Part shown: piece after piece, positions 50,154 through 62,786 of the stretch
Numbering within the stretch: the first letter of the stretch is position 1
How the letters are laid out: every line of letters begins with the position of its first letter
DNA from: Acidobacteriota bacterium
GTDB taxonomy: Bacteria; Acidobacteriota; Vicinamibacteria; Vicinamibacterales; SCN-69-37
Length of the DNA: 64,000 bases
Direction of reading: 5' to 3'
Assembly (NCBI GenBank): GCA_020853395.1
Contig: JADYYY010000007.1
Location: forward strand, 124,001 to 188,000
The notes under the pieces: model-generated
Seen by the model: the letters and a program-made list of their open reading frames with translations, nothing else
The model's database searches: none
Told to the model about the DNA's origin: nothing
Program-made: the position numbers and the translations under genes

Positions 50154-51626
50154 ATGACTCGGAATATGGCGGGACGAGGGGCGGGTTGGATGGCGGGGAT
50201 GGCGACGATCGTCGTGTTGGGCGGGTGCGGGACGCCACCGCGGCAGGACGCCGCCACGCTGGAAGTGCAAGGCCAGGAAGTGGCGGTGATGACCGACGCG
50301 CCGAACGTGCCGCCGCCCATCACGCGGCGGACGCCCACGAGGGTCGTCGCGAACCTGGAAGTCACCGAAGTGGTCAAGCGGCTCGCCGACGGCGTGGACT
50401 ACACGTTCTGGACGTTCGGCGGCGCGGTGCCGGGCAAGTTCATCCGCGTGCTCGAAGGCGACGAAGTCGAGTTCACGCTGAGCAATCACCCCTCGAGCCG
50501 CATGCCGCACAACATCGATCTGCACGCCGTCACCGGGCCGGGCGGCGGCGCGGCGGCGTCGATGACCGCGCCCGGGCATTCCTCCAAGTTCTCGTTCAAG
50601 GCGATCAATCCTGGGCTCTACGTCTACCACTGCGCCACCGCACCGGTCGGCATGCACGTGGCGAACGGCATGTACGGCCTGATCCTCGTCGAACCACGCG
50701 AGGGCCTGCCGAAGGTCGACCGTGAGTACTACGTGATGCAGAGCGAGTTCTACACGCAGGGCCGCTACGGCGCGCCCGGCCTGCAGCCGTTCAGCATGGA
50801 GAAGGCGCTCACCGAAACGCCCGACTACGTCGTGTTCAACGGAGCGGTTGGCGCGATCAGCGGCGACCAGGCGCTCAAGGCCAGCGTCGGCGAGCGGATC
50901 CGGCTCTTCATGGGCAACGGCGGCCCGAACATCGTCTCGTCGTTCCACGTCATCGGCGAGATCTTCGACAACGTCGTGCACGAAGGCGGGACGATGGTCA
51001 ACCACAACGTGCAGTCGACGATGATCCCGGCCGGCGGCTCGACCATCGTCGAGTTCAAGGTCGAAGTGCCGGGCACGCTGATCCTCGTGGACCACTCGCT
51101 CTTCCGCGCGTTCAACAAGGGCGCGCTCGGGCAGATCAAGGTGGATGGGCCGGACAACGCGCGCGTGTACTCGGGCAAGCAGTCCGACGAGATCTATCAG
51201 CCCGAAGGCGGCGCGATTCAGTCCGTGCCGCAGGCGGGCATTCCGCGGCCGCCGGCCACGAACAAGGCGGAGCGGATCACGCGCGGCCAGGCGTCGTATG
51301 CCGGCACCTGCGCGGCCTGCCACCAGCCGGCCGGCCAGGGTCTGGCCGCCGCGTTCCCGCCGCTCGCCGCGTCCGACTACCTCAACGCCGACAAACGGCG
51401 TGCGATCTCGGCCATCGTCCACGGGTTGAGCGGCGAGGTCACGGTGAAGGGCCAGAAGTTCAACAGCGTGATGCCGGCGCTGACGATGTCGGATGAAGAG
51501 ATCGCCAACGTGCTGACGTACGTGTACAACAACTGGGGCAACGCCGGGTTCGAGGTGACGCCAGCCGAAGTGGCGGCGGTCCGCGCGGCCGCGCCGGCCA
51601 AGGCCGGTGCGCCGGCGGCCGAGTGA
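50154..51626 (+). CDS. nirK: Copper nitrite reductase with C-terminal cytochrome c domain
   Basis: This enzyme reduces nitrite to nitric oxide in the periplasm. The 490-residue lipoprotein (lipobox LGGC, Cys25) has two cupredoxin domains. Type 1 copper ligands are His119, Cys160, His168 and Met173; type 2 ligands are His124, His159 and His314. The catalytic Asp122 and His265 are also present. A mono-haem cytochrome c domain follows from about residue 370, with CAACH (386-390) and a likely axial Met440. The fused cytochrome probably passes electrons directly to type 1 copper. AGGAGG lies before the ATG, and nirV and sco follow in the same direction. Confidence 0.95.
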
Positions 51627-51660: not shown

Positions 51661-52563
51661 ATGAAGGCACGACGACGGGATGAGACGACACGGGTGGCGG
51701 CCAGGGCCGCCATCCTCGTCGTCTGTCTCGCGAGCACCGCCGGCGTCGTGGCGCAGGAGCGCCGCGACGCCGCGGTCTCGAAGCCTCCGGCCGGGATGGT
51801 GACCGTGCCGGCCGGCTCGTACGTGCCGCTCTACCGTCCGCCCACGTCGCCGACCGCCGCGGGGCCGGGGCGCGCCGGCGCCGCGACGCCGGCGGTCCCG
51901 GTCTCCCGCCGCGTCGAGGCGTTCCAGATGGACGTCTTCCCCGTCACGAACGGCGAGTACTTGGAGTTCGTGCGCCAGCATCCCGAGTGGCGCAAGTGGC
52001 GTGTCAAGAAGCTCTTCGCCGAAGAATCGTATCTCTCGCACTGGAAGGACGAGCTCGATCCCGGTCCGCTGGCGCCCGCCGACAGCCCGGTCGTCAACGT
52101 GTCGTGGTTCGCCGCGCGCGCGTACTTGAAAGCGCAGGGCAAGGAGCTGCCGACCGTCGATCAGTGGGAGTACGCGGCGGCGGCGAGCGAAACGCGACGC
52201 GACGCGTCGCGCGACGCGGCCTTCATCGACCGTCTGCGCGTCTGGTACGGTCAGGCGGTGCCGGATCCGCTGCCATCCGTACGCACCGGCTTCCGGAACG
52301 TGTACGGCATCCGCGGCCTGCACGGACTCGTCTGGGAGTGGACGCTCGACTTCAACTCCGCGCTGGTGAGCGGCGAATCACGCGCCGACAGCGCGCTCGA
52401 GCGGTCGCTGTACTGCGGCAGCGGCGCGAGCGGCGCCGCCGACTTCGAGAACTATCCGGCATTCATGCGCTACGCGCTGCGGAGCAGCCTGCAGGCGCGG
52501 TACGCCGTCGGCAGCCTGGGCTTCCGCGGCGTCCGGAACCTGCCATCCGGAGGAACACGATGA
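51661..52563 (+). CDS. nirV: NirV-like protein, formylglycine-generating-enzyme fold
   Basis: This 300-residue secreted protein has a signal peptide (about residues 12-32) and an FGE/SUMF1-type domain: FQMDVFPVTNGEYLEFV, PVVNVSWFAARAYLKAQGK, LPTVDQWEYAA and GLHGLVWEWTLDF. Genes of this type next to nirK are known as nirV. Only one Cys (LYCGSGASG) remains where active formylglycine-generating enzymes have a redox pair, and GSLGFRGVR replaces the usual GFRCAR end, so catalytic activity as an FGE is unlikely. A role in NirK maturation or stability is inferred. The next gene overlaps its stop. Confidence 0.85.
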   Translation: MKARRRDETTRVAARAAILVVCLASTAGVVAQERRDAAVSKPPAGMVTVPAGSYVPLYRPPTSPTAAGPGRAGAATPAVPVSRRVEAFQMDVFPVTNGEYLEFVRQHPEWRKWRVKKLFAEESYLSHWKDELDPGPLAPADSPVVNVSWFAARAYLKAQGKELPTVDQWEYAAAASETRRDASRDAAFIDRLRVWYGQAVPDPLPSVRTGFRNVYGIRGLHGLVWEWTLDFNSALVSGESRADSALERSLYCGSGASGAADFENYPAFMRYALRSSLQARYAVGSLGFRGVRNLPSGGTR

Positions 52564-53195
52564 CCGCGTCGCCGATCGCACGCACCGCCGGCCTCGTGCT
52601 GGCGTTGACCGTCGCCGCCAGCAGCCTCGCCGGGTGCGGCGACCGCCAGCCATCGGCGGCGGCATCCGCGCCGGCCGCCTCCCGCGATCTGCCGCCTGAC
52701 GGAACGCTCACGGGCGAGTCGATCTTCGATCTCGACCTTCCGCTCGTCGACCACGCGGGCCGCACGCTGAAGCTCGCGGACCTCGGCGGGCACGTGATGG
52801 TCGCCGCGATGGTGTACACGTCGTGCACGACCATCTGCATCATGATCACCGAGGAGATGAAGCAGATCGAACGGCAACTGGCCGGCGTCGATCGCGACGT
52901 GCGCTACGTGCTGTTCTCGCTCGACCCCGGGCGCGACACGCCGGCCGCGATGCAGCAGTTCGCGAAGGCGCACGAGCTCGACACGAGCCGCTGGACGCTG
53001 TACGCGGCATCCGAGGAAGGCGTGCGCGATCTGGCCGCCGTGCTGGGCGTGAAGTACCGCGAGGAGGAGAACGGCGAGATCGCGCACTCGGCGATGATCT
53101 TCGTCATCGACGGCCGCGGCGTCGTGCGGCACCGCCAGGTCGGCGTCCGGCAGGATCCGGCGCCGCTCGTCGCCGCCGTCCAGAAAGCCCGCTAG
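52560..53195 (+). CDS. SCO1/SenC family copper chaperone lipoprotein
   Basis: SCO proteins deliver copper to the CuA site of subunit II of haem-copper enzymes. This 211-residue lipoprotein (lipobox SLAGC) has the thioredoxin-like SCO fold with the copper ligands Cys-x3-Cys in SCTTIC and the distal His in EIAHSAMIF. The ATG overlaps the nirV stop. Its placement between nirK and a CuA-containing enzyme fits a copper-supply role for either. Confidence 0.92.
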   Translation: MTASPIARTAGLVLALTVAASSLAGCGDRQPSAAASAPAASRDLPPDGTLTGESIFDLDLPLVDHAGRTLKLADLGGHVMVAAMVYTSCTTICIMITEEMKQIERQLAGVDRDVRYVLFSLDPGRDTPAAMQQFAKAHELDTSRWTLYAASEEGVRDLAAVLGVKYREEENGEIAHSAMIFVIDGRGVVRHRQVGVRQDPAPLVAAVQKAR

Positions 53196-53286: not shown

Positions 53287-53865
53287 TCAGGGTCGAATCT
53301 CGAACAGCGCGCGCCGTTCGGGGTCGTAGCTGATGAGCCGTACCTGTCCTGGCGAGAAGTCCAGCCGCGCGTTGTACGTCAGGGCCGCCGGCACCGCCTC
53401 GATCAGCTCCTCGTGCCGACGCGACGCGTCGCGCCCGGCGGACGTGGCGTTCGCATCCGGCGCGCCCGCCGTGTCGCCGCCGATGCGCGTGAACCGGACG
53501 GTGATGTCGGCCGGACCAGCCGGCACATGAATCTCGTGGAAAACGTAGAGCGGCCGGTCGCGGCGGAGTCCGCCGGGGTGCACGGGCGCCGTGAGCAGCA
53601 CCGTGGAGTCCCGGAGGACCTCCAACTGGTAGGACGCGTTCGCGCCCTCGCAGATGACCGGCTGCCGCATGTGCGGCGGCAGCGCCTTCAGCGCGTCGGG
53701 GCTTTGCTCATGGCACTCCTCGATGCGCTCGGGGCGCGCGCGCCACGTCAGACGCAGCACCGCCTCCTGGCCGCCTGACTGCGGCAGCGGGACCTGCGAG
53801 AGCACGGCGATTCCCGCGGCCGCGATCATGCCACCCGCCAACCCGATCACGCGAGCCATCGTCAT
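53287..53865 (-). CDS. Membrane-anchored hypothetical protein coupled to the cytochrome b fusion
   Basis: This 192-residue protein has one N-terminal membrane helix (ARVIGLAGGMIAAAGIAVLS), and the rest is probably periplasmic and beta-rich. Two Cys (ECHEQSPD and PVICEGANA) could form a disulfide or bind a cofactor, but no known motif is present. I do not recognise the family. The ATG at 53865 overlaps the stop of the cytochrome b fusion gene (ATGA), suggesting it is an accessory or subunit of that protein. Confidence 0.75.
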   Translation of the reverse strand: MTMARVIGLAGGMIAAAGIAVLSQVPLPQSGGQEAVLRLTWRARPERIEECHEQSPDALKALPPHMRQPVICEGANASYQLEVLRDSTVLLTAPVHPGGLRRDRPLYVFHEIHVPAGPADITVRFTRIGGDTAGAPDANATSAGRDASRRHEELIEAVPAALTYNARLDFSPGQVRLISYDPERRALFEIRP

Positions 53866-55418
53866 CTCAGCACTTCCTCGGGGACGGTCTCGCACACGGC
53901 GGCGTCGCCGGCGTCGACCGGTTCCGGCGCGGCCGTGCCGAGCGCCGCGATGTCGGCCTTGAACGCGCGCACTGCCGCGAGCGCCAGCGCGGATTCATGG
54001 GCGCCAGCGTAGGTGATCCGCACGCGCGCTCTCGGTACTCTGGGCTGCAGCTCGGCCTCGCGCCCCTGGAACATCCGCTCGGCCAGCCACTTCGGCCCTT
54101 CGCGATTCCAGCAGTCGCGAGGCGGACACGCGATCACCAGCACGCCGCCGGCGCCGTCGCGAACGAGGCGCTCGATCACGGACGTGTGCAGGTTGCCGGC
54201 GCACGAGACCGGCCGGAAGGCGGCGCCAGCGGACTCGATCGCCGGCGCGAATCGCCCGGCGCCGCGCTCGCAGCCGAGAGCGACGACGCTGCCGTGCCGC
54301 ACGGTGGTCATGACCTCACGGGCCGCCGCGAGCTGGTCCCGCCCCGTGCGGCCCGCCGGTCCGATGCCCATCGGCGCGCAGGACGCCGAGCAGATACCGC
54401 AGCTCACGCACAGATCCGGATTCACCTCGGCGACGAGCGTCGGACGCGCGTCCGTCCTCGGCACCATCTCGATGGCGCCGTAGGGACAGTCGGTGGCGCA
54501 GTGCGTGCAGCCCGTGCAGACGTCGGGATCGACCGTCGACGCCGGAGGTCTCGCCCCCCGAGGCCGGCGCGTGAACGCGGGCACGACCAACAACGCCGCG
54601 GCTGCGCCGGTCAGCAGCGCCAAGAGCGCGCCGCCGCCGATCCTCGAGCTGAGCGGCAGCCAGAACGCGACGAAGACGTCGGCCGGCACCACGGTGGGCA
54701 GCGCGAACGGATTGGCTTTCGGCACCATGACCAGGGGCCGCGCGATCGCGACCGCGGCCAGCAGGCCCACCACGGTCCACAGCAGCGGACGCGGCGGCAG
54801 CAGCATCGGCCGCTGCAGCCGCTTGACGTGCAGCCAGAACATGACGCCCATGCCGAGCGGCACGCCGATGTGCGCGAAGAGCGTGATGAAGAAGAACACG
54901 CTCGGCACCGGGCGCTCGCCCGTGAACGCGCGGCTCACCGGCTCCGACAGGACCGGCAGCCGGTCGGCCATCCGCGCGCCGGCGACCGCGAGCTGCTCGC
55001 CGAACGTGTCCCAGACCATCACGTAGCCGGTCCACGCACAGAGGTAGAGCAGCACCACCAGCAGCCCGCCGGTGACCCACGCCATCGTGCGTGCGCCCCA
55101 GCTTCGCGCCTGCGCGAACATCCGGACGGCGTGCACGGCGGTCGCGACGATCGCCGCGTCGGTCGCGTACCGATGCAGGCCCCGCACCCAGTTGCCGAGC
55201 CAGAGGTCGCCGGTCAGCCGGCTCACCGATTCCCATGGCGCGCCCACGCGATAGAACAGCAGCAGCCAGACCCCGGTGACGAGCAGCACCAGCCACATCG
55301 CCACCGCAATCGTGCCGCTCTGGTAGAGGGGATTGAACCGCCAGGTATAGAGCCGGTTCGCGATCGCATCGGCTCTCGTCACGAGCCCGAGCATCGCGCG
55401 CTCGATCGTCTTCAGCAT
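53862..55418 (-). CDS. Cytochrome b / 2x[4Fe-4S] ferredoxin / MvhD-like fusion protein
   Basis: This 518-residue electron-transfer fusion has an N-terminal cytochrome b/b6-type membrane domain (about 1-280). Two His pairs with the x13 spacing of b haems are present: His82/His96 and His183/His197. A ferredoxin domain follows, with CTGCTHCATDCPYG (301-314) and CVSCGICSASCAPMG (337-351). The last part (about 375-470) resembles the MvhD/FlpD delta subunit of heterodisulfide-reductase complexes, with Cys383, Cys406, Cys431 and Cys436. It probably links the quinone pool or a cytoplasmic low-potential donor to periplasmic acceptors. It is divergent from the CuA oxidoreductase operon. The combination is unusual and its role is inferred. 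Confidence 0.88.
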   Translation of the reverse strand: MLKTIERAMLGLVTRADAIANRLYTWRFNPLYQSGTIAVAMWLVLLVTGVWLLLFYRVGAPWESVSRLTGDLWLGNWVRGLHRYATDAAIVATAVHAVRMFAQARSWGARTMAWVTGGLLVVLLYLCAWTGYVMVWDTFGEQLAVAGARMADRLPVLSEPVSRAFTGERPVPSVFFFITLFAHIGVPLGMGVMFWLHVKRLQRPMLLPPRPLLWTVVGLLAAVAIARPLVMVPKANPFALPTVVPADVFVAFWLPLSSRIGGGALLALLTGAAAALLVVPAFTRRPRGARPPASTVDPDVCTGCTHCATDCPYGAIEMVPRTDARPTLVAEVNPDLCVSCGICSASCAPMGIGPAGRTGRDQLAAAREVMTTVRHGSVVALGCERGAGRFAPAIESAGAAFRPVSCAGNLHTSVIERLVRDGAGGVLVIACPPRDCWNREGPKWLAERMFQGREAELQPRVPRARVRITYAGAHESALALAAVRAFKADIAALGTAAPEPVDAGDAAVCETVPEEVLR

Positions 55419-55519: not shown

Positions 55520-55690
55520 ATGCGCACTCCTGCTGAGACTCCTCACTCCGACGACGCCGTGCCGCTCGGCCAGCGCCTCTTCGACAACGTGTTCCTGCTG
55601 CTCGGGGCCGGTCTGCTCGTCATGCTGCTCGTCTACACCGGCTGGGGTCTCGTGGAAGTGCTGACGCTTCCGCCCGCCCCGCTTCCCTGA
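55520..55690 (+). CDS. Single-helix small subunit of the CuA haem-copper enzyme
   Basis: This 56-residue peptide starts MRTPAETPHSDDAVPLGQRL and has one membrane helix (FLLLGAGLLVMLLVYTGWGLV), with short polar ends. It is below the size limit of usual gene calls, but it has an uninterrupted frame from ATG to TGA, membrane character, and lies 8 bp before the subunit II gene. B-family oxidases (ba3) contain a similar one-helix subunit IIa, so I infer the same role here. The Shine-Dalgarno is weak (G-rich, far upstream). Confidence 0.7.
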   Translation: MRTPAETPHSDDAVPLGQRLFDNVFLLLGAGLLVMLLVYTGWGLVEVLTLPPAPLP

Positions 55691-55698
55691 GGTACGTC

Positions 55699-56277
55699 AT
55701 GCTGACCGACACGCACACCGGGCTGGACTTCCCCCAGGGCACCTGGTGGAAACCGGCGCACAAATCCGAGAAGGTCTGGGTCGCCATCGCCTTCGTCTGG
55801 TGCATGGTGCTCTTCGCCATGATGCCGCTCTGGCACTGGAAAGGCGGCCAGAACCCGTCGGGCATCCGCCGGACGACGACGCCCGCCGACTTCATGGCGC
55901 GGGTGACGGAGTTCACGAACCAGTACAAGGTCGGCGAGGATCGCGGGCTGCCGATCGTGGCGCCGCCGCCCGGCGCCGACGTGTACCTCGTCGCCTACTC
56001 GTTCCAGTGGTCGCCGATTCTCAAGCTGCAGAAGAACGTCGAGTACACGCTCCATCTCTCGTCGCTCGACGTGAACCACGGCTTCTCGCTCTACCCGATC
56101 AACGTCAATTTCCAGGTCGTCCCCGGCTACGACTACGGGCTGCGCGTCACGCCCAACGCGGCGGGCGACTTCCGGATCATCTGCAATGAGTTCTGCGGCA
56201 TCGGCCACCACATCATGGTCGGCCGCGTGATGGTGGACGACGCGCCGTCCGTGGCGTCCCTGGGAGGTGTGCGATGA
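55699..56277 (+). CDS. CuA-containing subunit II of a haem-copper oxidoreductase
   Basis: This 192-residue subunit II receives electrons from a periplasmic donor. One N-terminal membrane helix (about 26-46) anchors a cupredoxin domain. The binuclear CuA ligands are complete: His127 (LDVNHGFSLY), Cys162 and Cys166 (CNEFCGIGHH), His170 and Met173, plus Glu164 between the cysteines. The single anchor helix and compact size resemble B-family (ba3-type) enzymes. GAGG precedes the ATG, and the stop overlaps the subunit I start (ATGA). Confidence 0.93.
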   Translation: MLTDTHTGLDFPQGTWWKPAHKSEKVWVAIAFVWCMVLFAMMPLWHWKGGQNPSGIRRTTTPADFMARVTEFTNQYKVGEDRGLPIVAPPPGADVYLVAYSFQWSPILKLQKNVEYTLHLSSLDVNHGFSLYPINVNFQVVPGYDYGLRVTPNAAGDFRIICNEFCGIGHHIMVGRVMVDDAPSVASLGGVR

Positions 56278-58037
56278 GTGCGGCGACGGCTCCGCTCGCG
56301 CCGATCGAGACGGCGGTGTTCCGCACCTGTCCGGCGACCGGCCGGCGGATCGATCTCTCGGCCGAGCGGCTGGTCAAGGTCCACGCGGTCTCGTCGGTGG
56401 TCTCGCTCCTCGTGGGCGCGGTCGCGGCGGTGCTGCTCGTGCTCACGCGCTGGCAGGCCGTGCACCTGCTGCCGGCCGAGTGGTTCTACCGGATCCTCGG
56501 CGTGCACGGCATGAGCATGCTGATCTTCTTCATCATCTTCTTCGAGATGGCCGTGCTGATCTTCGCGAGCACGGCGCTGCTCAACGCGCGTCAGGTCGCG
56601 ACGAAGACGGCGTGGGCCGCCTTCGCGCTGATGCTCGCCGGCGCGCTCGTCGTCGAGTGGATGATGTGGTCGGGCAACGCCGACGTGCTGTTCACGTCGT
56701 ACGTGCCGCTGCGCGCCGACCCGAAGTTCTACCTCGGCGTGATCCTCTTCGCCGTCGGCGCGCTCGTCACCGTCGGGCTGTTCTTCGCGAACCTCGTCTA
56801 CGCGAAGCGGGAGCAGCGGTACCAGGGCTCGCTCCCGCTCGTCGTCTACGGCGCCGTGACGGCGGCGATCATCGCGGTGATCACGCTCGTGCACGGCGCG
56901 GCGATCTACATCCCGACGTACCTCTGGTCGCTCGGCCTCATGGAGGTCGATCCGCAGATCTACCGGCTCATCTGGTGGGGGCTCGGACACTCGTCGCAGC
57001 AGATCAACGTCGCCGCGATGGTCGCGATCTGGTACATGCTCGGGGCGCTGACGGTCGGCTCCGTCGTGCTCAACGAGAAGATCAGCCGCTCGGCGTTCGT
57101 GCTCTACGTGCTGTTCATCTCGATGGCCTCGGCCCATCACCTGCTCGTCGATCCCGGCATGGGCCCGGCGTGGAAGATCGTCAACACCAGCTACTTCATG
57201 TACATGGCGGTGCTGGCGTCGATGATCCACGGCTTCACGGTCCCAGCCGGCATGGAGCTGGGCATGCGGCTGCGCGGGTTCACACAGGGTATGTTCGACT
57301 GGCTGCGGCGCGCCCCGTGGGGCGACCCGGGCTTCAGCGCGCTGATCTTCTCGGTGGTCGTCTTCGGCTTCGTCGGCGGCATCACCGGCGTGACGATCGG
57401 CACCGAGCAGATCAACATCATCGTGCACAACACGCTGCGCGTGCCGGGCCACTTCCACGCCACGGTCGTGAGCGGCACGGCGATGGCGTTCATGGGCGCG
57501 ACGTACTATCTCATCCCGCTCATCTTCCGGAAGAAGGTCGCGTTCTGGCCGCTCGCGAAGATCCAGCCGTACCTGTTCGCCGGCGGCATGCTGATCTTCA
57601 CGCTGTCGATGACGTTCGCCGGCAGCTTCGGCGTGCCGCGGCGTCACTGGGACATCAGCTTCAGCGGCGCGCCGTTCGACGTGCAGTTCAACCCGATCGT
57701 GGACGTCGTGCTGGCCGTCGTCGCGCTCGGCGGGCTGCTCGCCGCCACCGGCGCCTTCGCCTTCATCGCGATCGCCGTCGCGTCGGTGTTCTTCGGTGAG
57801 CCGCTCGGCACGATCCCCAAGGGCGTCGTCGTCGCCGGCATCCCGCAGGGGCTGACGCAGCCGCCCGTCCATGCCGCGGACGTGGACACGAGGAGCCGCG
57901 CGCTGCACGACGCCTCGCGCGGCCTCATGGGGCCGACGCCCGGCACGATCGCGCTCGTGTTCGTCTTCCTCGCCGCGTTCGTCCTCTACTTCTTCGTCAA
58001 CTGGAAGGTGCTGTCCTTCCTCTGGAGGATCGGATGA
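56274..58037 (+). CDS. Haem-copper oxidoreductase subunit I, probable NO reductase
   Basis: This 587-residue catalytic subunit has at least twelve membrane helices. All six metal-ligand His are visible: His78 (low-spin haem), His239 (helix VI, CuB), His288/His289 (helix VII) and His393/His395 in PGHFHATV. The stretches HHLLVDPGMGPAWKI and GFTVPAGMELG align with B-family (ba3) oxidases. In place of the HPxVY motif there is HSSQQ, so the cross-linked active-site Tyr is Gln243. This loss is characteristic of NO-reducing members (such as the eNOR/sNOR/nNOR groups), not of oxygen reductases. Adjacency to nirK supports an NO-to-N2O role. An oxidase with altered chemistry is not excluded. Confidence 0.85.
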   Translation: MSAATAPLAPIETAVFRTCPATGRRIDLSAERLVKVHAVSSVVSLLVGAVAAVLLVLTRWQAVHLLPAEWFYRILGVHGMSMLIFFIIFFEMAVLIFASTALLNARQVATKTAWAAFALMLAGALVVEWMMWSGNADVLFTSYVPLRADPKFYLGVILFAVGALVTVGLFFANLVYAKREQRYQGSLPLVVYGAVTAAIIAVITLVHGAAIYIPTYLWSLGLMEVDPQIYRLIWWGLGHSSQQINVAAMVAIWYMLGALTVGSVVLNEKISRSAFVLYVLFISMASAHHLLVDPGMGPAWKIVNTSYFMYMAVLASMIHGFTVPAGMELGMRLRGFTQGMFDWLRRAPWGDPGFSALIFSVVVFGFVGGITGVTIGTEQINIIVHNTLRVPGHFHATVVSGTAMAFMGATYYLIPLIFRKKVAFWPLAKIQPYLFAGGMLIFTLSMTFAGSFGVPRRHWDISFSGAPFDVQFNPIVDVVLAVVALGGLLAATGAFAFIAIAVASVFFGEPLGTIPKGVVVAGIPQGLTQPPVHAADVDTRSRALHDASRGLMGPTPGTIALVFVFLAAFVLYFFVNWKVLSFLWRIG

Positions 58038-58915
58038 CCTCCGCGACTCGCGCCTCGTCGGCCCTGGCGGCTCTCCTCGCCATCCTCGGCATCACGGCGG
58101 CCTGGTGGGCGCTGGCGCTGTGGCCCGTCGACGCGTCGGCGCCCGAGTGGTTCCTGCGCACGCGCGAGGTCTGTTTCGGATCGGTCCGCAACGGCCTGCC
58201 GAACGCTGGCGGGTGGATCCTGCTCATCGGGCAGCCGCTCGGCATGCTGCTCGTGCTCGCCGTGGTGTGGACAGCGGACCTCCGCGCCGGGCTCGCACGA
58301 CTGACCAGCCGGCTGCCCGGCCAGCTCGCCGCCGGCGCCCTTGCGGCCGCGATCGTCGCCGGCCTGGGGGGCGTGGTCGTTCGCGTCTCCGGCGCGACGG
58401 CCGACACGTTCTCCGCCGGGAGCGTCCGCGACAACGCCGCCGCCCTCACGCGGATCGACGATGCGCCGCCGGAGATGACGCTCGTCGATCAGCACGGCAC
58501 TACGGTGACGCTTGACCAGTTCCGCGGCCGTCCCGTCCTCGTCACGTTCGCCTACGCGCACTGCGAGACGGTCTGTCCCGTCATCGTCGCCGACGTGACG
58601 ACGGCGGCCGCGCGGCTCGTCGAAGAACGGCCGGCGGTGCTCGTCATCACGCTCGATCCGTGGCGCGACACGCCCGGCCGGCTTCCGGCGATGGCTGCCG
58701 CCTGGCACCTCGCCGGCGACGCACGCGTGCTGTCGGGCGAACCCACCGCGGTGGATCGGGTGCTCAACGCCTGGCGCATCCCGCGCGTGCGCAACGAGCG
58801 CACGGGCGATCTGTCACACCCGTCGCTCGTCTACGTGATCAACTCGAACGGACGCATCAACTACGTGCTCACGGGCGGCGCAGACCACATCGTTGCGGCG
58901 GTCAAACATCTGTAA
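58034..58915 (+). CDS. SCO1/SenC domain protein with multi-helix N-terminus
   Basis: This 293-residue protein has about three hydrophobic segments in the first 120 residues (LAALLAILGITAAWWALALWP, here split as ALAALLAILGITAA; GGWILLIGQPLGMLLVLAVV; LAAGALAAAIVAGLGGVVV). A SCO domain follows with Cys-x3-Cys in AHCETVCPV and the copper His in DLSHPSLVYV. The ATG overlaps the subunit I stop (ATGA). It is probably the dedicated CuA or CuB assembly factor of this enzyme. The long membrane part is unusual for SCO proteins, which normally have a single anchor. Confidence 0.88.
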   Translation: MTSATRASSALAALLAILGITAAWWALALWPVDASAPEWFLRTREVCFGSVRNGLPNAGGWILLIGQPLGMLLVLAVVWTADLRAGLARLTSRLPGQLAAGALAAAIVAGLGGVVVRVSGATADTFSAGSVRDNAAALTRIDDAPPEMTLVDQHGTTVTLDQFRGRPVLVTFAYAHCETVCPVIVADVTTAAARLVEERPAVLVITLDPWRDTPGRLPAMAAAWHLAGDARVLSGEPTAVDRVLNAWRIPRVRNERTGDLSHPSLVYVINSNGRINYVLTGGADHIVAAVKHL

Positions 58916-59485: not shown

Positions 59486-60277
59486 CTACCATCCCGCCTG
59501 CAGCACGAGCGCCGCCCACCCGTGGCGATCCTCGCGCCGCACGGGCCGCATCCCAGCTCGACGGTACACCTGCTCGACCTCGCCGGCGACCGAACTCGCG
59601 ATTCCGGACAACACGAGCGTGCCGTAATGCGCGAGCCGGCGGATCAGTGCCGGTGCCATGTCCATCAGCGGAGCGGCGAGGATGTTCGCGAACGCGAGCG
59701 GCCACGCGCCGGTCAGGCTCTCCGGTCCTCCCTCGACGAGCTGCAGGTGCGCCGCCAGGCCATTCAGCCGCGCGTTGACCGCCGCGGCGCGGATCGCGGT
59801 GTGGTCCACGTCGATCGCGGTGGCGCACAGCACGCCCAGGCGCAGCGCCGCAAGCGCGAGCACGCCCGATCCGGTGCCGACGTCGAGCACACACGCGGGC
59901 GGCGCATCGCCGACTTCGTCGTCGAGGATCTCGAGACAAAGAGCGGTCGTCGGATGAAGCCCTGTCCCGAACGCCTCGCCGTCGATCATTCGCAGGCCGT
60001 CCACGGGCCGCGGCCAGCCGGCCGGCACAATGACGGTGCGGCCGACCTGCACCGGTCGGGGGACGAGAATCCAGACCGACCCGGCATCGCGTCCACGCAC
60101 GGCCGACACCCGCACGCCGGTCGCGCCGATCGCGTCGACGACGGTCTGAACACTCACCTCGTCCGGCAGGATCGCCGCGACGTGCCCGCGGACGAGGTCC
60201 ACGTCGAGCGCCCCCAGATCCACGAGCCGATCGAGTGCGTCGGACGCCGGCGTTTCCAGATCGAGACGGTAGGGCAT
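59486..60277 (-). CDS. prmA: Ribosomal protein L11 methyltransferase
   Basis: PrmA trimethylates ribosomal protein L11 using SAM. The 263-residue protein has the PrmA signature region DGEAFGTGLHPTTALCLEIL, motif I VLDVGTGSGVLALAALRLG, motif II IDVDHTAIRAA and the catalytic-loop ANILAAPLMDM in place of the NILA motif. The N-terminal substrate-recognition domain is present but shorter than usual. It starts at 60277, next to the pyrimidine tract. Confidence 0.91.
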   Translation of the reverse strand: MPYRLDLETPASDALDRLVDLGALDVDLVRGHVAAILPDEVSVQTVVDAIGATGVRVSAVRGRDAGSVWILVPRPVQVGRTVIVPAGWPRPVDGLRMIDGEAFGTGLHPTTALCLEILDDEVGDAPPACVLDVGTGSGVLALAALRLGVLCATAIDVDHTAIRAAAVNARLNGLAAHLQLVEGGPESLTGAWPLAFANILAAPLMDMAPALIRRLAHYGTLVLSGIASSVAGEVEQVYRRAGMRPVRREDRHGWAALVLQAGW

Positions 60278-60279
60278 GG

Positions 60280-60376
60280 TCTTCTCTCTTCTTCCCTTTT
60301 CCCTTTCCCCTTCGCCCCTTCCTTTTCCCTTCGTCCCTTCACCTTTGCCCTCTGCCCTTTGCCCTTTGCCCTGTAT
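60280..60376 (-). repeat. Polypyrimidine 'CCCTTTG' tract
   Basis: Repeated ttttccc, tttgccc and ccttcccc units lie between the divergent prmA and PQQ dehydrogenase genes. It is the inverted complement of the tract at 58914-58992, so the two enclose the GNAT-prmA pair. It ends in ccctgtatga, close to the ccttgtatga that ends the tract before nirK. Confidence 0.8.
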
Positions 60377-60401
60377 GATTTCTCAACTCAAGGAGCTTCC
60401 C

Positions 60402-62786
60402 ATGGCAGGTACTCGCCTTCTCGGACGTCCCTCCCGGCCGTCGTCTCCACGCGTACGACGTGCGCCGTTCGCGCTGATCGCCGCGTTGCTCGTGGTCGCG
60501 ATCGGGACCGGAGCAGGTCTGGCACAGCGTAGCGGCAACACGAACCCGCGTGCCTTGCCCGGCGCCGACAGCTCGAACTTCGTGGACTTCGACCAGATCA
60601 CGAAGACCAACGTGAAGAACCTGCAGGTCGCCTGGTACTACCCGCACGCGGCGGCGATCTTCAGCCCCGTCGCGGTCGACGGCGTGCTCTACGGTCTCGG
60701 CCGCAACAGCTCCGCGCTCGTCGCGCTCGACGCGACGACGGGCAAGGAGATCTGGGTGCACGATGGGCTGCAGGGCATCGTCAGCAAGGGCATCAACTTC
60801 TGGCAGAGCGAGGACGGCAAGGATCGGCGGCTGCTCTTCTCGGTCAACAGCTTCCTGCAGGCGATCGACGCGCGCACGGGCAAGTCGATCCTGAGCTTCG
60901 GCAAGAACGGCATCGTGGACATGCGCGCCGGGCTGCGGCGCGCGGAGGGCACCGGCGCGAGCGCGCAGCAGAACAGCCCGGGCCGGATCTGGCGCAACCT
61001 GCTCATCCTCGGCGGATCGTCCGGCGAGGCGTTCATCACGCCGCCGGGAGACATCCGCGCATACGACGTGGTCACCGGCGAGAGGGTCTGGCAGTTCCAC
61101 ACCGTGCCAGAGCCCGGCGAGTTCGGCTACGAAACGAACCCGAAGGAAGGCTACAAGTACATCGGCGGCGCCAACAACTGGGGCGAGATGTCGGTCGACG
61201 AGGAACGCGGAATCGTCTACATCCCGACCGGCTCGGCCACGTACGATTTCTACGGCGCCGACCGGCACGGCGCGAACCTCTTCGCCAACTGTCTGCTCGC
61301 GCTCGACGCGCGCACCGGCAAGCGGCTCTGGCACTTTCAGACGATCCACCACGACCTCTGGGATCTCGACAACGTCTCGGCACCACAGCTCGTCACGGTG
61401 CGGCAGAACGGCCAGACGATTCCGGCCGTCGCGCACGCCGGCAAGACCGGATTCCTCTACGTCTTCAACCGCGTCACGGGTCAGCCGCTCTGGCCGATCG
61501 AGGAACGGCCGGTGATGAAGACGGACGTCCCGGGCGAGTACTCGTCGCCGACGCAGCCGTTCCCCACCAAACCGCCCGCGTTCGTCCGACAGTCGTTCGG
61601 GGTCGACGATGTGAACCCGTGGCTGCTGTCGAAGGAGCAGTACGAGGACATGCGCGCCCGTGTGGCGAAGGCGAAGAACGGCACCGGCCCGCAGGGTGGC
61701 CTGTTCATTCCGCCGAGCCTCGGCATCGAGTCGATCTCGATGCCGGGCAATCAGGGCGGCGCCAATTGGGGCGTCACGGCCGGCGATCCCCAGAGGGGCA
61801 TGGTCTTCGTCGTCGGCGTCAACCAGGTGGCGTTGCTCAAGCTGGAGGACGTGAAGACGCGACAGGGCGGGAGCGACAACCAGGCGTCCGGCACCGTGCT
61901 CTCGCGCGGCCAGGCCGCCTACGCCCAGCACTGCAGCACGTGCCATGGCGCGAACATGCAGGGCGCGCAGCCTGGTGTGCCGTCGATCGTCGGCGTGACG
62001 TCGCGGATGGACGCCGACGCGATCCGCGCGATCGTGCAGGAAGGGCGAGGGCTGATGCGCCCGCTGCTCGAGATCGGATCGCAGGATCTGAACGCCATCG
62101 TGGCGTACCTCACGGCGACCAACCCGTTCGGACGTGGCGGCGGTGCGAACGCGGCGGCGATGGGTGGTCCGTCGCTGCCGCCGGGGCCGACCGTCGCCAC
62201 GGGCGGCGCTCCGCGGCCCGCGGTGCCGGCGCGCGGCCTTGGGCCTTACTACCCTGGCGCCGGCGGCAACGCCGGCAACATCCCCTGGCCCGACGAGCTG
62301 GAGGACAAGAGCTTCCTCCCGCCGACGCGCTTCATGAGCGGCTACAACGTGATGGCGACCTACACCAAGCCGCCGTACACGACGTTGACGGCGTACGATC
62401 TCAACAGCGGGACCATCAAGTGGCAGATCGCGCCGGGCGATCATCCGCCCACCGTCGCGCGCGGCGGTCCGCGCGGCACGGGCGGCGTCGGCGCGCGCAA
62501 CGGCGTGCTCGTCACCCGATCCGGCATCGTCTTCCACGCCGCCGGCGACTACAAAGTGCGCGCCTACGATGAGGACACCGGCAAGGAACTGTGGTCGGGC
62601 GCCATTCCGGGATCGGCGCGTGGCATCCCCACCATGTACATGGCGAACGGCAAGCAGTACCTCGTGATCGCGGTGCCGGCCGGTCAGGTACAACCCGGCG
62701 CGGCGCCTGGCGCCGACGCCGAGACCGGCGCGCCCGTCGTCACAGAGACGACGCCGCGCGGGTACGTCGCGTTCGCGCTGCCGTAG
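60402..62786 (+). CDS. PQQ-dependent dehydrogenase with inserted cytochrome c domain
   Basis: This 794-residue secreted quinoprotein is of the glucose/alcohol dehydrogenase-like eight-bladed propeller type common in Acidobacteriota. It has a signal peptide (about residues 19-41, ending AGLAQ). The W-docking repeats include ALVALDATTGKEIWVHDG, LLALDARTGKRLWHFQ, YDLNSGTIKWQIAPGDH and YDEDTGKELWSGAIPG. A mono-haem cytochrome c domain (CSTCH at residues 511-515) is inserted within the propeller, so electrons from PQQ can leave directly through haem. The substrate is unknown; PQQ-binding itself is inferred from the family. AAGGAG precedes the ATG at 60402. Confidence 0.9.
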   Translation: MAGTRLLGRPSRPSSPRVRRAPFALIAALLVVAIGTGAGLAQRSGNTNPRALPGADSSNFVDFDQITKTNVKNLQVAWYYPHAAAIFSPVAVDGVLYGLGRNSSALVALDATTGKEIWVHDGLQGIVSKGINFWQSEDGKDRRLLFSVNSFLQAIDARTGKSILSFGKNGIVDMRAGLRRAEGTGASAQQNSPGRIWRNLLILGGSSGEAFITPPGDIRAYDVVTGERVWQFHTVPEPGEFGYETNPKEGYKYIGGANNWGEMSVDEERGIVYIPTGSATYDFYGADRHGANLFANCLLALDARTGKRLWHFQTIHHDLWDLDNVSAPQLVTVRQNGQTIPAVAHAGKTGFLYVFNRVTGQPLWPIEERPVMKTDVPGEYSSPTQPFPTKPPAFVRQSFGVDDVNPWLLSKEQYEDMRARVAKAKNGTGPQGGLFIPPSLGIESISMPGNQGGANWGVTAGDPQRGMVFVVGVNQVALLKLEDVKTRQGGSDNQASGTVLSRGQAAYAQHCSTCHGANMQGAQPGVPSIVGVTSRMDADAIRAIVQEGRGLMRPLLEIGSQDLNAIVAYLTATNPFGRGGGANAAAMGGPSLPPGPTVATGGAPRPAVPARGLGPYYPGAGGNAGNIPWPDELEDKSFLPPTRFMSGYNVMATYTKPPYTTLTAYDLNSGTIKWQIAPGDHPPTVARGGPRGTGGVGARNGVLVTRSGIVFHAAGDYKVRAYDEDTGKELWSGAIPGSARGIPTMYMANGKQYLVIAVPAGQVQPGAAPGADAETGAPVVTETTPRGYVAFALP

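Follow-up and report, generated by a model that had tools for sequence, protein, structure and literature searches.

What could a membrane cytochrome b that carries ferredoxin and MvhD-like domains on the same polypeptide be doing, and which enzyme does it serve? The question is raised by a protein, hereafter the fusion protein, encoded in the window (the whole 64,000-nucleotide stretch of an Acidobacteriota bacterium contig analysed here; Table 1).

Table 1. Positions in the window of the features discussed in the text.
Feature	Position	Strand	Basis
NirK with C-terminal cytochrome c; a local neighbour outside the conserved system	50154..51626	(+)	Pfam, NCBIfam
C3, TM-anchored beta-sandwich protein, predicted periplasmic; 34-nt overlap with the end of the fusion gene	53287..53895	(-)	prediction
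Fusion protein, cytochrome b - 2x[4Fe-4S] ferredoxin - FlpD/MvhD, 518 aa	53862..55418	(-)	ORF, Pfam, AlphaFold model, conserved ligands
FlpD/MvhD domain, about residues 379-494; C383/C406/C431/C436, predicted [2Fe-2S]	53937..54284	(-)	Pfam, conserved Cys, fold match
2x[4Fe-4S] ferredoxin domain, about residues 295-350	54369..54536	(-)	Pfam, conserved Cys
bc1/b6-type cytochrome b domain, about residues 25-285, helices A-F	54564..55346	(-)	Pfam, fold match
Small single-TM subunit of the putative NO reductase operon, 56 aa; also in Defluviimonas	55520..55690	(+)	
CuA subunit II of the putative eNOR-type NO reductase; H127, C162, E164, C166, H170, M173 conserved	55699..56277	(+)	Pfam, NCBIfam, alignment
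eNOR-type catalytic subunit I; CuB ligands H239, H288, H289; Gln243 replaces the oxidase Tyr	56274..58037	(+)	Pfam, alignment
SCO/SenC copper-chaperone domain after an N-terminal membrane region	58034..58915	(+)	Pfam, neighbour clustering, alignment

Domain organization of the fusion protein

The order of the domains (cytochrome b, double ferredoxin and MvhD-like region in one ORF), proposed in the initial annotation, was confirmed by Pfam, by alignment and by an AlphaFold model. Pfam matched Cytochrome_B at residues 29-202 (1.1e-10), the Fer4_7 dicluster at 301-347 (9.7e-9) and, above the cut-off, FlpD at 403-494 (6.4e-11). Among NCBIfam profiles, the N-terminal part resembled b6-type cytochromes, and the C-terminal part of the HdrA2 profile covered residues 291-495. 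Both heme-ligand pairs of the cytochrome b domain are present (H82-x13-H96 and H183-x13-H197), and the ferredoxin cysteines (301/304/307/311/337/340/343/347) form two CxxCxxCxxxC sets. In an alignment of 80 homologues no substitution occurs at the four histidines, at C383, C406 and C431, or at any ferredoxin cysteine except C340 (99%). C436 is kept in 99% of the sequences, and H411 and C509 are further conserved positions. A divergent Bdellovibrionales member (L085) has a substitution at C436. Variability of the C-terminal cysteines, named in the initial annotation as a point that would speak against its reading, was therefore not observed. Since all ligands are kept across the homologues, the domains are no chance assembly.

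The AlphaFold model, built on a 70-sequence alignment, had a mean pLDDT of 90.8 and a pTM of 0.88. Its residues 14-292 matched bc1 cytochrome b (best Z 22.5) beyond the four-helix core, through helices A-F, and its C-terminal part matched MvhD (5odc_D, TM 0.74). From the bc1 topology, H82/H183 would be the P-side pair and H96/H197 the N-side pair. The fusion protein shares with bc1/b6f cytochrome b the fold of helices A-F, the two bis-His sites with x13 spacing and the cd region; it has, however, no helices past F (no PF00032 match), additional Fe-S domains, and an xDxF motif instead of PEWY, which itself is absent. In a profile of the E-F region, D247 aligns with the glutamate of PEWY; this position is Asp in 62/70 fusion sequences and Asn in 8/70.

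With MvhD/FlpD and the C-terminal ferredoxin-MvhD part of HdrA2 the fusion protein shares the four cysteines and the fold, but here the domain is attached to a membrane cytochrome b, and the genome encodes no HdrA flavoprotein (no match to NF041778). The fusion protein also holds the only FlpD domain of the window genome, which lacks canonical bc1 as well (no match to PF00032, the bc1 C-terminal cytochrome b domain). These results argue against a link to heterodisulfide reductase, a connection that we considered for the MvhD part and rejected. QmoABC and HdrABC-Mvh do join MvhD-like domains to quinone-linked or ferredoxin-linked electron transfer, but both need flavoproteins of the HdrA type, absent here, and the membrane part of Qmo is of a different cytochrome b/HdrC type.

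The adjacent operon encodes a putative eNOR-type NO reductase

The genes that face the fusion gene encode a heme-copper enzyme with a CuA subunit. Alignment placed a glutamine (Gln243) at the position of the oxidase tyrosine in all 66 subunit I homologues, with the CuB ligands intact. The same glutamine is found in the enzymes of Thermus, Thermomicrobium, Defluviimonas and genome G310, whereas a haloarchaeal ba3 oxidase has tyrosine. Glutamine at this position is the published signature of eNOR and asparagine that of sNOR, and Thermus is listed among eNOR (PMC8756737). We therefore call the partner eNOR-type and consider it a putative NO reductase; sNOR was rejected as its identity because the active-site residue is Gln and not Asn. 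The window subunit I is 49-56% identical to the Thermus and Thermomicrobium enzymes, with which the operon also shares the CuA subunit, its CuA ligands being conserved. An N-terminal RxC motif of subunit I (R17/C19) is invariant in the clade. Downstream of the operon lies a gene for a PQQ-dependent dehydrogenase with a cytochrome c domain (60276-62786; Pfam PQQ, 5.9e-156).

The fusion protein is a near-constant companion of eNOR

Neighbouring ORFs were clustered over 81 fusion loci. A single arrangement recurred: next to the genes for the fusion protein and C3 (see below) are those for heme-copper subunit I, for CuA subunit II, for an SCO protein that has a membrane region and, in many loci, for an Rrf2-type regulator. 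Other repeated neighbours of the fusion gene encode CtaA (heme A synthase), UbiA prenyltransferase and CopD-like proteins. Upstream sequence of at least 2.5 kb was available for 65 loci, and in all of them eNOR subunit I lies beside the fusion gene (63 divergent, 2 co-directional); on a Defluviimonas plasmid the fusion gene is part of a single co-directional eNOR operon. Occurrence of the domains mainly in unrelated contexts, which the initial annotation had regarded as adverse to its proposal, was thus not what we found.

The association extends to whole genomes. Among 249 Gemmatimonadota genomes, 62 carry the fusion gene, 62 carry eNOR and 59 carry both (Fisher p 1e-49, a value that ignores the relatedness of the genomes). 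The two are at most 6 kb apart on one contig in 55 of these 59 genomes, and on separate contigs or more than 6 kb apart in the other four. Six genomes were discordant, four of them (G227, G248, G282 and G284) through cuts at contig ends; G310 has a divergent eNOR without the fusion gene, and G217 has the fusion gene beside unrelated genes, without eNOR. At this last locus (L097, G217:C2) the fusion gene, C3 and CtaA adjoin a gene of the beta-lactamase family, and the arrangement is likely a remnant left after loss of eNOR. Among 247 Acidobacteriota genomes, all five with eNOR have the fusion gene; a sixth fusion-like match, in G445, is an unfused relative (see below).

The link between the fusion protein and eNOR is firm. 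The earlier idea of a link between the protein and the neighbouring nitrite and NO enzymes accordingly held for the CuA enzyme, which is eNOR-type (65/65 loci; 59/62 genomes), but not for NirK, which we rejected as a partner because nirK is present at only 7/80 homologous loci. As the fusion protein accompanies eNOR nearly constantly in several phyla, its role is probably that of a dedicated electron-handling component in the eNOR system and not that of a partner of nitrite reductase. In the window, the nirK gene is followed by one for an SCO lipoprotein (52560-53195), and this pair is seen again near the eNOR cluster in L007, L012 and L026.

The companionship has exceptions. On the eNOR plasmids of Thermus and Thermomicrobium no fusion gene was present, either beside eNOR or elsewhere on the same record. 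These cases and G310 indicate that the fusion protein is not intrinsically required for catalysis.

A scan for the fusion protein returned 80 loci, mostly of Gemmatimonadota, the other carriers being Acidobacteriota, one Myxococcota, one Bdellovibrionales and one Deltaproteobacterium; the plasmid collection yielded one alphaproteobacterial copy, that of Defluviimonas. The named near relatives of the window genome are Acidobacteria and Vicinamibacteria records. Within the window genome and its Acidobacteriota relatives the distribution is scattered (6/100 genomes). Such patchiness could be taken to mean that the fusion gene hitch-hikes with eNOR in a mobile respiratory cassette, or that its product senses NO or the redox state; an Rrf2-type regulator with conserved C91/C98/C104, frequent at fusion loci (48 loci), would fit as well. 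A coincidence of this kind at the level of domains is, however, very improbable: the linkage survives the differing gene orders described above, the two genes co-occur even in the four genomes where they are on different contigs or more than 6 kb apart, and the redox ligands stay invariant.

C3 and a possible role in enzyme maturation

The gene for C3 overlaps or abuts the fusion gene in 55 of the 57 loci where it was recognised. In divergent members (L084, L085, L086, G535 and G536) the C3 sequence is joined to the C-terminus of the cytochrome b-ferredoxin-FlpD protein, which is strong evidence that C3 and the fusion protein, where encoded separately, would share one complex. Four-part fusions that include the C3 periplasmic domain were seen at loci L084, L085, L086, L099 and L100. 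C3 matched no Pfam family, and its predicted fold gave no convincing match in the PDB. A role as a copper or heme protein was rejected, since its Cys pair is not kept in G535 and its His is substituted in Defluviimonas; a disulfide is therefore likelier.

With C3 fused, the layout of TM segments, two [4Fe-4S] clusters, a further TM segment and a predicted C-terminal periplasmic beta-sandwich recalls CcoG/FixG, which is likewise tied to a heme-copper enzyme. CcoG is a reductase of Cu(II) that binds two [4Fe-4S] clusters and ends in an Ig-like periplasmic domain (PMC7558416). By analogy with CcoG and cbb3, the fusion protein might be a maturation reductase, using cytoplasmic electrons to reduce periplasmic Cu(II) or chaperone thiols for the CuA and CuB sites of eNOR, or to feed heme A synthesis. 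This layout, together with the SCO, CtaA, UbiA and CopD genes in the operon and its vicinity, makes maturation a serious alternative, and CrpH, a heme-bearing PepSY_TM protein that supports heme-copper oxidases (PMC13038864), also counts for it. The cytochrome b and FlpD parts, however, are missing from CcoG, and homology of C3 to FixG_C was undetected, a Pfam threshold as loose as E 1 yielding no match to an Ig/FixG family. The C3 cysteines are not conserved in G535, and distant relatives linked to cbb3 adjoin Rieske, cytochrome b and cytochrome c genes rather than assembly genes. On balance we consider a role in maturation unlikely, though it is the alternative to be taken most seriously.

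Distant relatives accompany cbb3 oxidases

In G445 and related genomes of its Acidobacteriota class, FlpD has its own gene, which comes after that for a cytochrome b-ferredoxin protein. Their conserved operon (L096, G445:C1:4316500-4336400, and L121-L128) encodes cbb3 subunit I, FixO/cytochrome c, cytochrome c, Rieske, canonical cytochrome b, two small membrane proteins, cytochrome b-ferredoxin and FlpD; of eight further neighbourhoods, five have it whole, and in the others contig ends truncate it. The unfused pair thus ties the module to a second terminal heme-copper enzyme. In composition the operon corresponds to a bc-type complex supplemented by a second cytochrome b that carries a ferredoxin.

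The presence of Rieske and canonical cytochrome b together with cytochrome b-ferredoxin and FlpD in these operons brings in another reading, in which the fusion protein is an outlet for quinol bifurcation. Quinol would be oxidized on the P side, one electron going to the high-potential eNOR chain and the other through bL and bH to the ferredoxin and FlpD domains, yielding a low-potential reductant. The retention of both hemes and of helices A-F, and of Asp in place of the PEWY glutamate in most sequences, would suit this scheme. Yet that residue is Asn in the remainder, the bc1 C-terminal domain is missing from the window genome, and at the eNOR-type loci, as distinct from bc1/b6f, neither a Rieske nor a cytochrome c1/f partner was found among the recurrent neighbour clusters of the 81 fusion loci. 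We regard such an outlet as improbable. Much the same low standing, in our estimate, belongs to the proposal that a strongly oxidising NO-reducing (or O2-reducing, cbb3-linked) chain drives quinol bifurcation into low-potential cytoplasmic carriers via a bc-type cytochrome b whose own polypeptide supplies the ferredoxin/MvhD outlet, and does so without a conventional bc1 partner; we hold it to be rather improbable.

Proposed electron input from the cytoplasm

The reading that we tentatively prefer is that the fusion protein is a dedicated membrane redox subunit feeding electrons from the cytoplasm into the membrane for the eNOR system. Judging from the six-helix bc1-like topology, the ferredoxin and FlpD domains would be on the cytoplasmic side. 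A cytoplasmic donor, encoded outside the operon, would first reduce the [2Fe-2S] cluster of the FlpD domain, from which electrons would reach the N-side heme b by way of the two [4Fe-4S] clusters, and would go on to quinone and/or to the P-side heme and across the membrane to the side of eNOR and C3. The fusion protein would act like a ferredoxin:quinone reductase built into a b6-type cytochrome, and NO reduction would gain an electron input of its own, parallel to the route through alternative complex III (ACIII) and cytochrome c. Such a route may exist in the window genome: genes for a multiheme cytochrome c, an ActB-like protein and NrfD form an operon beside a caa3 oxidase (L130, G000:C5:140500-155500) that looks like ACIII coupled to caa3 and can be a source of cytochrome c for eNOR.

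Electron input is consistent with the ligands, with the bc1 and MvhD folds in one confident model, with the pairing with eNOR and the pairing or fusion with C3, with the cbb3-linked relatives, and with a genome that has ACIII and caa3 and no bc1. Against it stand the lack of a gene for a cytoplasmic donor nearby and of HdrA, the usual MvhD partner, in the window genome, the existence of eNOR without the fusion protein, and the assembly genes (SCO, CtaA, UbiA and CopD), which fit maturation. The domain composition, the ligands, the fold and the pairings with eNOR and C3 are direct results; for the direction of electron flow, its donors and its acceptors, the input order is the inference that we favour.

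Implications

Each module of the fusion protein is known. The literature searched, which was thin on subscription journals and had the main eNOR paper outside it, described neither their combination nor its near-obligate link to eNOR. A survey of Gemmatimonadota reported NorBC in 9% and the cytochrome b gene petB in 23% of genomes (PMC9426454); in our set of 249 genomes of this phylum, the fusion protein and eNOR are each present in about a quarter (25%). Part of the petB of the survey may be the fusion protein, in which case counts of bc1 could be too high and those of NO reduction too low. A wider class of heme-copper reductases that work with a cytochrome b bearing ferredoxin and MvhD domains is suggested by the cbb3-linked relatives. 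The fusion protein adds a near-obligate, uncharacterised redox component to a little-studied class of NO reductases that makes N2O, and the electron donors of the eNOR-linked fusion protein are now directly testable.
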